Below, one piece after another: positions 55,876 to 62,918 of a stretch of 64,000 nt of DNA (position 1 is the first letter of the stretch; each line of letters begins with the position of its first letter). Source of the DNA: Halorhabdus utahensis DSM 12940 (GTDB lineage: Archaea > Halobacteriota > Halobacteria > Halobacteriales > Haloarculaceae); contig NC_013158.1 in NCBI RefSeq assembly GCF_000023945.1, forward strand, positions 1,054,001 to 1,118,000, read 5' to 3'. A program made the position numbers and the translations under genes. The notes below the pieces were generated by a model. It was not told the origin of the DNA and searched no databases. It worked only from the letters and a program-made list of their open reading frames with translations.

Positions 55876-56574
55876 ATGAACCGGCGACGCGCCGACATCG
55901 CGGCGGGGATCCTGCTCGGCGTGATGCTCCTCCTCGGCGGCGGACTCACCTGGAACGCGACCCGGCGGCGGACCGCCGACGGGACGATGGGTTCGATGAT
56001 GGACACCTCGATGGGGTCGATGCACGGCCCGGACCCGCTGTGGTACGCCCTCGGAACGCTGGTGATCGCCGCCGTCCTGGGCGGACTCTATCTTCTCGTC
56101 CGGCCCGAATTCGGGGCGGGGCAAGCCGGGACACGATCCGGACAGACCGGGACTCGACCGGGGCAAGCCGAAACTCGGCCGGGACAGGCCGGGACGCAAC
56201 CGGACCAGCCCCAGGCGACGCCAGCGTCGGAAGACGCCGCCGGACAGACGGACGAGGAATCGACCACAGACGACTCAGCCGCCGAGAGCGCCGAAACCGA
56301 CGCGACCGACGGGCAGGCGACCGCTCCCGAGGCGAATCCGACCGGGCGCGTGCTGGATCTCTTGCCCGAGGACGAACGCCAGGTCCTCGAACCCGTCTTC
56401 GAATCGCCGGGGATCACGCAGATCGAACTCCGGGACCGGTCGTCGTTCTCGAAGAGCAAAGTGAGCCAAACGGTGACCGACCTCGAGGAACGGGGCTTGC
56501 TCTATCGGGAACGCCAGGGGCGGACCTACCGGATCTATCCGAGCGAGGAACTCGGGGCGAACCGGGAGTCCTGA
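55876..56574 (+). CDS. membrane-anchored winged-helix regulator with Met-rich loop
   Basis: The product has 232 residues. Helix 1 (IAAGILLGVMLLLGGGLTW) and helix 2 (YALGTLVIAAVLGGLYLLV) enclose an external loop with TMGSMMDTSMGSMHGPDP, dense in Met plus one His. A cytoplasmic spacer of Gly-Gln-Thr-Arg/Pro repeats and an acidic stretch leads to a C-terminal winged helix (about 158-225: PEDERQVLEPVFESPGITQI…). The layout is that of a one-component membrane sensor. The MxxM-like loop suggests copper or silver binding, an inference. The next two genes encode exported metal-ligand-rich proteins. Confidence 0.7.
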   Translation: MNRRRADIAAGILLGVMLLLGGGLTWNATRRRTADGTMGSMMDTSMGSMHGPDPLWYALGTLVIAAVLGGLYLLVRPEFGAGQAGTRSGQTGTRPGQAETRPGQAGTQPDQPQATPASEDAAGQTDEESTTDDSAAESAETDATDGQATAPEANPTGRVLDLLPEDERQVLEPVFESPGITQIELRDRSSFSKSKVSQTVTDLEERGLLYRERQGRTYRIYPSEELGANRES

Positions 56575-56735
56575 TCCGATCTGCCGACGGATGCCGAATT
56601 CGCCCGCGATGAACGGTCGCTTCGAAGAGAAACGATTAGCGGCAGTTAGAAACGGTCTCGGACGATCTCGTGGTTGCGTTCACACCCTCGTGAATAACCA
56701 CCGGAGGACCCTACCGAGTGTCGAGGTGAACCACG

Positions 56736-57197
56736 ATGGCAGAACCGAACGCAGTAACCTGGTTTCTCGTCGGGATCGCAATCCTGGGTGTGGTGATCGC
56801 CGTTCCGCTGATCAGCGCCCACGGCGACGGAATCACAGTGGACGAACCGCACGAGAACGGTACAGAGCAAGACCGACACGACGACCAGCGGATTCGGATG
56901 CACGCATACGGCCCAAGCCATCCGGACGGCAATACGACCGCGTGGATGGCCGCTCACATGGGAATGACCGAAATCGAGTGGCGGTCGACGCACATAAACA
57001 CGACCGAATGGCGAACGACGCACGCGAACGCGACCGTCTGGAATAGCGGACACGCTGGCGTGAACGAAAGCGGGTGGCCTGGCGACGGTAACAGCGTCGG
57101 GATCCACCCGCACGCGTCGATCGACGGCGACCCTACCGACCGCCACGACGAACGCGGTGGCCACGGTGGAATGTACGGGGGAGGACATGGATGCTGA
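56736..57197 (+). CDS. His/Met-rich exported protein
   Basis: The product has 153 residues. One N-terminal helix (VTWFLVGIAILGVVIAVPLI) acts as a signal or anchor. The outside part is rich in His, Met, Asn and Thr, with a semi-repeated WRSTHINTTEWRTTHANATV and a C-terminal RHDERGGHGGMYGGGHGC. Several Nx[ST] sequons (NTT, NAT, NES) could be glycosylated. A metal-buffering role is likely but unproven. Its end overlaps the start of the SHOCT gene by 7 bp. Confidence 0.65.
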   Translation: MAEPNAVTWFLVGIAILGVVIAVPLISAHGDGITVDEPHENGTEQDRHDDQRIRMHAYGPSHPDGNTTAWMAAHMGMTEIEWRSTHINTTEWRTTHANATVWNSGHAGVNESGWPGDGNSVGIHPHASIDGDPTDRHDERGGHGGMYGGGHGC

Positions 57198-57628
57198 CTG
57201 GGAAGCACGCTGACGGCGTCGGTCGGACGGTCGAAGCCGAGCCTGCGGGTTCGAACCCGGCGTCGCGGAGATTCCCGCAAGCCATCGTCGGGGGCGGCGT
57301 CCTCGCCGTGGGCCTGCTCGCAACGGTCGGCACCGCGAGCGCCCAGCACGGCGGCGGTGGCATGACGGGCGGCGGCTACGGCGGGTTCGGGATCCCGGGG
57401 TTCGGCCTCGCGTTCTGGATACTGCTCGGCCTCGGGATCATCGGTCTCTTCGCTTACACGCGAGATGGCCGCCGATCCCGATCGGGCGCGACATCGAGGG
57501 CCGACGAAGGGCGTGAACACAGCGATCGCGCCGTCGATACCCTCCGAGAACGGTACGCCCGGGGGGAGCTTACTGACGAGGAGTTCGAGACCCGCCGCGC
57601 GAAACTCGTCCGGCAGCGATCGCGGTGA
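57191..57628 (+). CDS. SHOCT-domain membrane protein
   Basis: The ATG at 57191 sits inside the end of the preceding gene. The product has 145 residues. A first helix with Ala-x-Ala (GLLATVGTASAQ) is followed by a Gly/His/Met-rich loop (HGGGGMTGGGYGGFGIPGF), then a second helix (FWILLGLGIIGLFAY). A C-terminal SHOCT motif (TLRERYARGELTDEEFETRR) closes it. The motif occurs in many small bacterial and archaeal membrane proteins as an oligomerisation element. Shared Gly/His/Met character with its neighbour supports a common function. Confidence 0.75.
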   Translation: MLTGKHADGVGRTVEAEPAGSNPASRRFPQAIVGGGVLAVGLLATVGTASAQHGGGGMTGGGYGGFGIPGFGLAFWILLGLGIIGLFAYTRDGRRSRSGATSRADEGREHSDRAVDTLRERYARGELTDEEFETRRAKLVRQRSR

Positions 57629-57677: not shown

Positions 57678-58106
57678 TCACGCATCGTCCCAGAGATCGC
57701 CGAATCGGGTTTCCACCCACGGCAATACGACCTCACGGATCACCGTCGTCAGGTCGGTCGGGAATTCCCGATCCTGTGCGTCCCCCGTGCTGGCGTCCGG
57801 CAGCGGGTGAAAGTGATCGCGACTGTTGTGATTCTGGTCGTGGCGATCGAACCGACACTGGCGCAACTCACCGATATGCGTCTCCAGATAGGAGACGTGA
57901 AAGTCGCCGTTTGTGTACGCACGGACCTCGAGACGGACCGCACCGATCGATTCCGGATACGCAGCGGTCTCGAACTCGATCACCAGACTCTCCTGTCTGT
58001 TCGGCGGGAACAGCGACACCCGGTTCACACTCGAGAGACGACCGAAAATCGACCGCAGATGGTCCAGCAGGGCTTCGTTGACCTGTCGCGGCCCGTCCCC
58101 CGACAC
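57678..58106 (-). CDS. partner protein of the winged-helix gene (function unknown)
   Basis: A GTG at 58104-58106, 2 bp after the regulator's stop, gives 142 residues; no ATG is available. The sequence is well-formed: an N-terminal helix (RQVNEALLDHLRSIFGRLSS), strands VNRVSLFPPNRQESLVIEFE and VRLEVRAYTNGDFHVSYLET, then HDQNHNSRDHFHPLPDAS, His-rich, and a final VIREVVLPWVETRF helix. This protein pairs with the same type of regulator in many haloarchaea. A toxin-antitoxin-like or sensor pair is possible; no known catalytic site is visible apart from the His cluster. Confidence 0.65.
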   Translation of the reverse strand: MSGDGPRQVNEALLDHLRSIFGRLSSVNRVSLFPPNRQESLVIEFETAAYPESIGAVRLEVRAYTNGDFHVSYLETHIGELRQCRFDRHDQNHNSRDHFHPLPDASTGDAQDREFPTDLTTVIREVVLPWVETRFGDLWDDA

Positions 58107-58108
58107 GG

Positions 58109-58627
58109 TCAGGCTGGTTCCGAATGCGACGAGGAGTCGTTCGCCCGCCGCTGTCGGACCGCCTCGAGGCGCTCGATCCGGCGTCTGACGGTCCGCCACT
58201 CGCTGACGTCCAGCCAGACCTCCTCGACGGCGTCGTACTCGGCGTGTTCGAGTGCGTCGACGGCGTCCGGATCGCTCACGCCGTACGTCTCCCGGAACGT
58301 CGCGTCCCGGTCGGTGAGATCCGCGAGACGCTCCCGTAACTCCGCGGTCGAGAGCTCGGCGAGGCGGTCCCGTTTGCGCCACTCGAAGTACGACTCGTTG
58401 CGTCGATACGTCTCCGGTTGCTCGGAGACCGCCTCGAGGACGCCGATATCGGCGAGCCGCCGACAGTGCCGACGGGCTGTATCGGGCGTGCAATCGGCCC
58501 TGTCGGCGATGTCGGCGATCCGGGCCGGCTCGTGAAGCTGGAGTGCCACCCGGTAGACCCGCTCGTCCGTCGGCGCGTCCGCGAGTTCCCCCTCGAACGC
58601 CGCGGCCACGTCGAACGTCGGTGCCAT
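58109..58627 (-). CDS. winged-helix regulator
   Basis: The product has 172 residues. The N-terminal 65 residues form a winged helix (TDERVYRVALQLHEPARIAD, then ADCTPDTARRHCRRLADIGV as recognition helix). The middle is a long charged helix with ELRERLADLTDRDATFRETY, and a coiled C-terminus follows. A TATA-like TAATATATT at 58651-58659 lies about 25 bp before the ATG, indicating a leaderless mRNA. The next gene is coupled to it with 2 bp between stop and GTG. Confidence 0.75.
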   Translation of the reverse strand: MAPTFDVAAAFEGELADAPTDERVYRVALQLHEPARIADIADRADCTPDTARRHCRRLADIGVLEAVSEQPETYRRNESYFEWRKRDRLAELSTAELRERLADLTDRDATFRETYGVSDPDAVDALEHAEYDAVEEVWLDVSEWRTVRRRIERLEAVRQRRANDSSSHSEPA

Positions 58628-62280: not shown

Positions 62281-62559
62281 ATGTCAAGCATCGTCCGAAC
62301 CGAGGACATCCTCGGGGGAGAACCGCGGATCGAGGGGACCCGAATCGGCGTCCGACACGTCGCCGGGAAAGTCGTCGATGCAGGGTATGCACCCGCTTAC
62401 GTAGCTGATCAGCTCGATATCTCGTTGGGGGCCGTCTACGAGGCCCTCTCGTATTATTATGACAACATCGAGGAAATCCGGGCGGTCGAACGGGAGAACG
62501 CGGAGACGCGCGACCGGTTGCGTGAGTCGTCGCTGCAGCCGAAAGAACCGGTTTCATGA
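62281..62559 (+). CDS. DUF433 antitoxin
   Basis: The product has 92 residues. The core ILGGEPRIEGTRIGVRHVAG, then DAGYAPAYVADQLDISLGAV and YEALSYYYDN, is the typical DUF433 helix-turn-helix. It is followed by an acidic/basic tail that would contact the toxin. A TATA-like TTTAAATAT lies about 27 bp upstream. The stop overlaps the toxin start (ATGA). Expected to autoregulate the operon. Confidence 0.85.
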   Translation: MSSIVRTEDILGGEPRIEGTRIGVRHVAGKVVDAGYAPAYVADQLDISLGAVYEALSYYYDNIEEIRAVERENAETRDRLRESSLQPKEPVS

Positions 62560-62918
62560 GTAAGCTGCTTCTAGACGAACACGTCAGCCGGATTTGCGAA
62601 CACGTGCTTCGGGACCGCGGATTCGACGTCAGCCAAGCAAAAGATCGGTTCGGCGAATACACGACAGACGAGGAGTTGCTCCAATGGTGTGACCGAAACG
62701 ACGTCGTGTTGGTGTCGAACAACGCGAGGGATTTCGAATTGCTGCATCGCAAAACGGACCACGCTGGACTGCTGATCTACTATGACCAGTCACTACCCGA
62801 CGACGATCCGGAGGGATTCGCTCGGACTGTCGAAGAAGTGTTCGAACAGTACGGAGCCGAGGAACTCCGTGACGAATACGTCGAGATCGACACGTGGTAC
62901 GAGTGGTTACAGGATTGA
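62556..62918 (+). CDS. DUF5615 PIN-like toxin
   Basis: The product has 120 residues. MSKLLLDEHVSRICEHVLRD gives the first conserved Asp, and TTDEELLQWCDRNDVVLVSN with NARDFELLHRK the later acidic residues of the PIN-like fold (Mut7-C/DUF5615). It is coupled to the DUF433 antitoxin by a 4-bp overlap. Such pairs act as VapBC-like modules; the RNA target is unknown. Confidence 0.85.
   Translation: MSKLLLDEHVSRICEHVLRDRGFDVSQAKDRFGEYTTDEELLQWCDRNDVVLVSNNARDFELLHRKTDHAGLLIYYDQSLPDDDPEGFARTVEEVFEQYGAEELRDEYVEIDTWYEWLQD

Follow-up and report, generated by a model that had tools for sequence, protein, structure and literature searches.

A haloarchaeal membrane-bound winged-helix protein, a conserved operator-like element and a proposed role in sensing extracytoplasmic copper

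Archaeal copper control has been described through cytosolic sensors, namely TRASH regulators and CopR. In haloarchaea the description runs through Lrp-TRASH proteins, with VNG1197C named as the regulator of Halobacterium yvgX (PMC3600143), and according to a survey of Haloferax mediterranei the annotated metal regulators of that species are not copper-related (PMC9240420). Transmembrane transcription regulators (TTRs) are another known kind of protein (PMC10269533), whose archaeal examples include ArnR and ArnR1 of Sulfolobus, regulators of motility and pili (PMC6396743). The words ‘metal’ and ‘copper’ are absent from the main text of the TTR survey (PMC10269533). Here we describe a haloarchaeal locus whose first gene encodes a putative variant of this kind, and which would, on our reading, couple a metal-binding loop outside the cell directly to a promoter.

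The window, a stretch of 64,000 nucleotides from Halorhabdus utahensis, covers positions 1054001-1118000 of a single 3.117-Mb contig. Three genes in it, here called A (55876..56574, + strand; 232 aa), B (56736..57197, +; 153 aa) and C (57191..57628, +; 145 aa), run in the same direction. The initial annotation, which proposed a metal-sensing system, had the three open reading frames at these coordinates and B and C overlapping by 7 bp; both are correct, the overlap being exactly 57191-57197. It also knew of no described system of this composition, and our literature search, which covered openly readable papers other than preprints, likewise found none describing A, B or the operator-like element discussed below.

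A consists of a first transmembrane (TM) helix, a Met-rich outer loop, a second TM helix, an acidic disordered linker and a winged helix. Hydropathy gives two TM segments, centred at about residues 17 and 66 on either side of GTMGSMMDTSMGSMHGPD: TM1 spans about residues 7-28 (55894..55959, +) and TM2 about residues 55-77 (56038..56106, +). The AlphaFold2 model has helices at 3-36 and 54-80, then the disordered acidic linker, then a winged helix at 155-227 with pLDDT about 90. The C-terminus (residues 160-226; 56353..56553, +) scores above the Pfam cut-offs for DUF7343 (33.6 bits), MarR_2 (31.9, cut-off 27) and MarR (26.3, cut-off 24.6), and its nearest solved folds in the PDB are MarR proteins and Archaeoglobus AF1382. 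Hydropathy, Pfam and model thus bear out the earlier description of a two-helix membrane protein with a winged helix. Given the RRR N-terminus and the C-terminal DNA-binding domain, positive-inside reasoning suggests that both ends of A are cytosolic and that the Met/His loop between the helices (residues 33-53, TADGTMGSMMDTSMGSMHGPD; 55972..56034, +) lies outside, where we propose that it serves as the metal sensor.

A carries its DNA-binding domain and TM regions in one protein, as TTRs including ArnR and ArnR1 do, and would like them act at the membrane without a kinase. It differs from ArnR and ArnR1, which have an N-terminal HTH and activate archaellum genes, in that its winged helix is C-terminal, its sensor would be the Met/His loop and its targets would be metal-handling genes. 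With the MarR repressors (MexR, HosA and AF1382 folds; Pfam MarR_2 and DUF7343) A shares the winged-helix fold; however, those are soluble dimers with N- and C-terminal dimerisation helices, whereas the winged helix of A is tethered to two TM helices with the presumed sensor outside the membrane. Neither the MarR dimerisation helices nor the long C-terminal helix is seen in the AlphaFold2 model of A, a monomer prediction. The Lrp/AsnC-TRASH regulators and CopT of Sulfolobus regulate copper genes in archaea, and some A loci adjoin TRASH regulators, but these proteins sense with a cytosolic, Cys-based TRASH domain, while A has no Cys and no TRASH match in Pfam and the distribution of the operator differs from that of TRASH. 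CusRS and CopRS control extracytoplasmic copper through a periplasmic sensor, as proposed for A, yet they need a kinase and a response regulator where A would do both in one protein; Pfam found no histidine kinase or response regulator domain in A, B, C or the scanned neighbours.

The winged helix is the most conserved part of A and is near-invariant among homologues. Met makes up 22% of the loop and His 6% across 34 homologues, against 0-0.5% Met in the TM helices, linker and winged helix. All 34 aligned homologues (34/34) have at least four Met plus His in the loop; its length and the order of its residues vary, and the cluster is always kept (examples are MMGHTATHG, MGGHMGDGAAAMHG and MGSMMGTSMGAVHG). 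Loss of the loop Met and His from homologues, which the initial annotation had named as an observation that would count against a metal sensor, is therefore not what the alignment contains. The sole clear exception among all A homologues seen is a distant relative (L099) in which the loop is missing.

Small exported proteins rich in Met and His, of the PcoE, SilE and CopK type, lie next to copper efflux genes. B resembles them in being small, exported and Met/His-rich, as had been suggested: it has a signal-like N-terminus with a single N-terminal hydrophobic segment, 14 His, 6 Met and one Cys, which is the last residue (GHGC). It is unlike them in lacking a family match in Pfam or NCBIfam, in the single conserved Cys at its end and in its fast evolution, while the operator before it stays constant. 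C has two hydrophobic segments by hydropathy, read as a signal/TM segment and a second TM segment flanking a Gly-rich outer loop, followed by a presumably cytosolic SHOCT domain (about 57533-57607, +; Pfam 39 bits, cut-off 27). The SHOCT assignment of the initial annotation stands, but its ‘Gly/His/Met loop’ does not, as the outer loop in the window copy (QHGGGGMTGGGYGG) is mostly Gly with one His and one Met. A SHOCT partner also comes after B in relatives. Just past C lies a gene for a DUF7342 winged-helix protein that overlaps a small uncharacterised open reading frame (58109-58627 and 57678-58124, both − strand); this pair adjoins the locus only in close relatives.

Between A and B, in the interval where regulatory DNA had been guessed (56575-56735), lies a strongly conserved operator-like element, AACGGTCTCGGACGATCTC (56651..56669, +), of 19 bp with two ACGNTCTC repeats at a 10-bp period. 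It sits within a near-invariant block of 24 non-identical B promoters, which reads GAACG-N-TC, AAACG-N-TTAGA, a TATA-like element, ACGNTCTCGAACGNTCTC, TTCACACCCA, GATAAC and a Shine-Dalgarno sequence. In the window these correspond to an upstream partial operator copy, GAACGGTC (56611..56618, +), whose GAACG is invariant in the alignment; a conserved AAACGATTAG plus TATA-like element directly before the operator, the probable core promoter (56630..56652, +); a second conserved box in the 5′ leader, GTTCACACCC followed by GAATAACC (56678..56699, +); and a Shine-Dalgarno-like GAGGTGA ahead of B (56723..56729, +). Most loci, including those where A is kilobases off (L082, L084, L086, L089 and L090), have the centre of the 19-mer 76 bp ahead of the start of B. 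In one genome (L096; G036 C1, near 660612-661183) the A homologue is apparently frameshifted, and B and the operator are still there. The second box, about 10 bp past the operator and in the form GTTCACACCC then GATAACC, is kept in the very divergent promoters of L131, L133 and L145. An RNA element in the B leader was considered and rejected, a consensus fold of 15 leaders giving no pairs.

The 3.1-Mb genome to which the window belongs holds one perfect match, the one at 56651-56669, the next best having two mismatches; a reversed control pattern occurs in 0 of 391 genomes, and we discarded the idea of a chance motif. When a weight matrix built from family B promoters was run over the 20 A loci of other families, none of which had served for its training, 17 had a site scoring 18.8-40 bits, against a control-region maximum of 14.5; the remaining three of these distant A loci have no good site nearby.

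The element also follows A from genome to genome. In a search of 116 genomes of the family, about 40 had an A homologue (E below 1e-15) and 28 had B, with a strong A match in every B genome but one, where there are A fragments only; a Halorhabdus amylolytica record carries an A homologue. Across the 391 genomes of the class, A is present in 138. The relaxed operator occurs in 103, 88 with A and 15 without (Fisher p about 2e-35), and the strict form, ACGTTCTCGAACGTTCTC, in 44, all of which have A (44/44; p about 7e-23), p values that overstate independence because the genomes are phylogenetically related, many copies moreover being plasmid-borne near-duplicates. An exact motif match is absent from 50 A-carrying genomes. 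In 12 of the 15 motif-only genomes, inspection found neither B nor SHOCT at the site; we took these 12 loci as chance variants and rejected independent use of the operator in A-less genomes. Three genomes (G076, G274 and G284) have the operator and B on another contig than A, and the association of operator and A is therefore independent of adjacency. The known TRASH copper regulator is found in 110 of the 116 family genomes and so cannot account for the patchy distribution of the operator; we ruled out the operator as its target on this ground.

What stands behind the operator is far less constant. At six distant loci (L131, L133, L135, L138, L144 and L145) the B profile finds nothing, and the operator, 85-97 bp ahead of the gene, precedes an unrelated small exported protein. 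After the signal these proteins are up to 31% His (range 20-31%), with repeats such as HHAEHDHGEH, and they mostly end in HC or CH. Several of these six loci, which belong to other haloarchaeal families, adjoin CopA or CopB ATPases. Among 54 operator-preceded open reading frames Cys is the last or second-last residue in 47, almost always as the sole Cys, and four of the seven exceptions belong to sites that have no B gene in their vicinity (L161-L164). The script that chose these 54 frames favoured starts near 86 bp, which partly biases its spacing count, and the spacing given here rests instead on the 24-promoter alignment and the list of frames at the distant loci. Because unrelated proteins with a terminal Cys lie behind the same operator, it appears that only the regulator, the operator, the signal sequence, the His/Met richness and that Cys are constant and that the body of the putative buffer protein evolves freely. 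A promoter search would thus find such proteins where protein homology fails, and the operator could be used to look for metal-binding proteins that are as yet unannotated.

To place the locus among its neighbours we read forty 8-20-kb regions round family A homologues, with 20 regions from the same contigs as controls. A, B and SHOCT genes occur together at most family loci, in line with the linkage that the initial annotation expected. Among the A regions (n = 41, several being near-identical plasmid copies), B is found in 36, SHOCT in 33, a permease in 18, DUF302 in 18, thioredoxin in 12, a cupredoxin in 33 and a multicopper oxidase in 7, the SHOCT and cupredoxin profile counts overlapping because the cupredoxin has a SHOCT tail; each of the seven was found in 0 of 20 controls. 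P1B ATPases occur in 14 of the 41 A regions versus 2 of 20 controls. At A loci of other families, ATPases over 600 aa occur at 9 of 20, several directly adjoining A, versus 2 of 20 controls, and the permease at 9 of 20 versus none of 20. Genes for the transport and binding of copper are thus enriched round A relative to the controls.

Among the larger loci the most frequent gene order is permease, A, B, SHOCT, DUF302, SHOCT, thioredoxin, cupredoxin; the annotation of plasmid pHMA155 of Haloarcula marismortui has the same order with product names. The permease of these large loci is ArsP_1 with a YHS domain; further neighbours include an AsnC/Lrp-TRASH regulator, a plastocyanin-like protein with SHOCT, a multicopper oxidase and P1B ATPases, of which some have CPC and MxxSS (the Cu+ type), some CPH (the CopB type) and, in a plasmid type, CPG. 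This CPG protein is a P1B-like ATPase of 639-652 aa whose transport motif reads CPG rather than CPC; upstream of it, a heavy-metal domain is encoded as a protein of its own, of 71 aa (L074, L075, L076, L077, L083, L085 and pHMA155, L167). The DUF302 protein (cluster c4) is regular in the large operon (L063-L102), which suggests a copper-related role for that DUF302 branch. A silver transcriptome of Haloferax alexandrinus reports induction of a membrane protein with SHOCT and of a COG0701 permease (PMC10694973), which is only a lead, as these may or may not be homologues of C and of the ArsP_1-YHS permease. The Halorhabdus form is reduced to A-B-C, which stands alone in the genome of the window; CopA and a TRASH regulator of this genome lie together at 1763663-1766488, about 0.65 Mb away, and the genome scan found no operator-like site beside them.

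Taken together, we consider it probable (roughly two chances in three) that A senses Cu or Ag as a transmembrane protein of one component and controls an operon for extracytoplasmic metal buffering. The Met/His loop between the TM helices would bind Cu(I) or Ag(I) on the outer side of the membrane, and binding would alter the packing or oligomeric state of those helices. This would change the contact between the operator at 56651-56669 and the MarR-like winged helix, which hangs on a long acidic linker, so that the winged helix releases (or engages) the site and B, C and their companions are switched on. B, or in relatives another His- or Met-rich exported protein ending in Cys, would then make up a module with the SHOCT protein and, in larger versions, with DUF302, thioredoxin and cupredoxin proteins; together they would buffer the metal outside the cytoplasm, binding it and handing it on.

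Met motifs are what one expects for extracellular Cu(I) or Ag(I), and the Met-dominated loop of A has this character. The neighbours of known metal preference point the same way: CPC/MxxSS and CPH ATPases, which in distant families lie beside A, together with the cupredoxin and the multicopper oxidase, favour copper, and with the YHS permease and the TRASH regulator they support the copper reading that had been offered from the window alone. Against it are the isolation of A-B-C in its own genome and the CPG rather than CPC motif of some neighbouring ATPases. The same architecture might answer another stimulus, the loop sensing oxidants through Met oxidation, or Zn or Ni, with B a general envelope-stress protein; the CPG-type ATPases, the thioredoxin that comes after in larger operons and the His-rich B variants of other families, which could bind Zn or Ni, would fit, but in view of the copper neighbours and the Met-dominated loop we think this improbable. 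That these are merely low-complexity proteins brought together by chance and sharing no function hardly deserves credence: B and C are of low complexity and B has no family, yet the linkage recurs, the operator and terminal Cys are conserved, and the survey of regions contradicts it.

From the distribution of A and the operator we infer that A, and not another factor, binds this site. Larger islands contain further wHTH genes, and the operator might belong to one of these, with A a membrane metal-binding accessory merely travelling with the island; we hold this to be quite unlikely, as the operator tracks A even when the two are on different contigs, and also where A, B and C form a small locus with no other island genes, the TRASH regulator is near-universal, and the winged helix is the most conserved part of A, consistent with a constant target. 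As to direction, repression relieved by metal is most likely, given that the operator follows close upon the TATA-like element. A sub-variant of the Cu/Ag-sensor reading would make A an activator, metal-bound A recruiting basal factors through the upstream GAACGGTC copy. The third conserved half-site upstream of the promoter elements (56611-56618) and the precedent of ArnR and ArnR1, archaeal membrane regulators that are activators (PMC6396743), speak for it, but a repressor would be expected between the TATA-like element and the putative start, which is where the strongest repeated site is found, and we regard activation as a tentative, less favoured option.

The arrangement and its operator recur across haloarchaea beside copper pumps. 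We see the balance as about even on a broader proposal, that A is the founder of a group of haloarchaeal membrane-embedded metal sensors in which a Met cluster between two TM helices reads extracytoplasmic copper and switches transcription directly, with neither a kinase nor cytosolic metal, and in which a dedicated operator marks fast-evolving exported metal-buffer proteins. If true, cells with a single membrane and an S-layer would have copper control at their surface as well, through one protein that senses outside the cytoplasm, and many haloarchaeal megaplasmid genes annotated as ‘MarR family’ or ‘hypothetical’ would be accounted for. Such a sensor would also be a minimal system in which signalling across a membrane to DNA can be tested directly, and could serve as a compact Cu/Ag biosensor part. 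Elsewhere in the window, at 62281-62918, is a small gene pair with a 4-bp overlap, which may resemble a toxin-antitoxin-like DUF433/DUF5615 pair.
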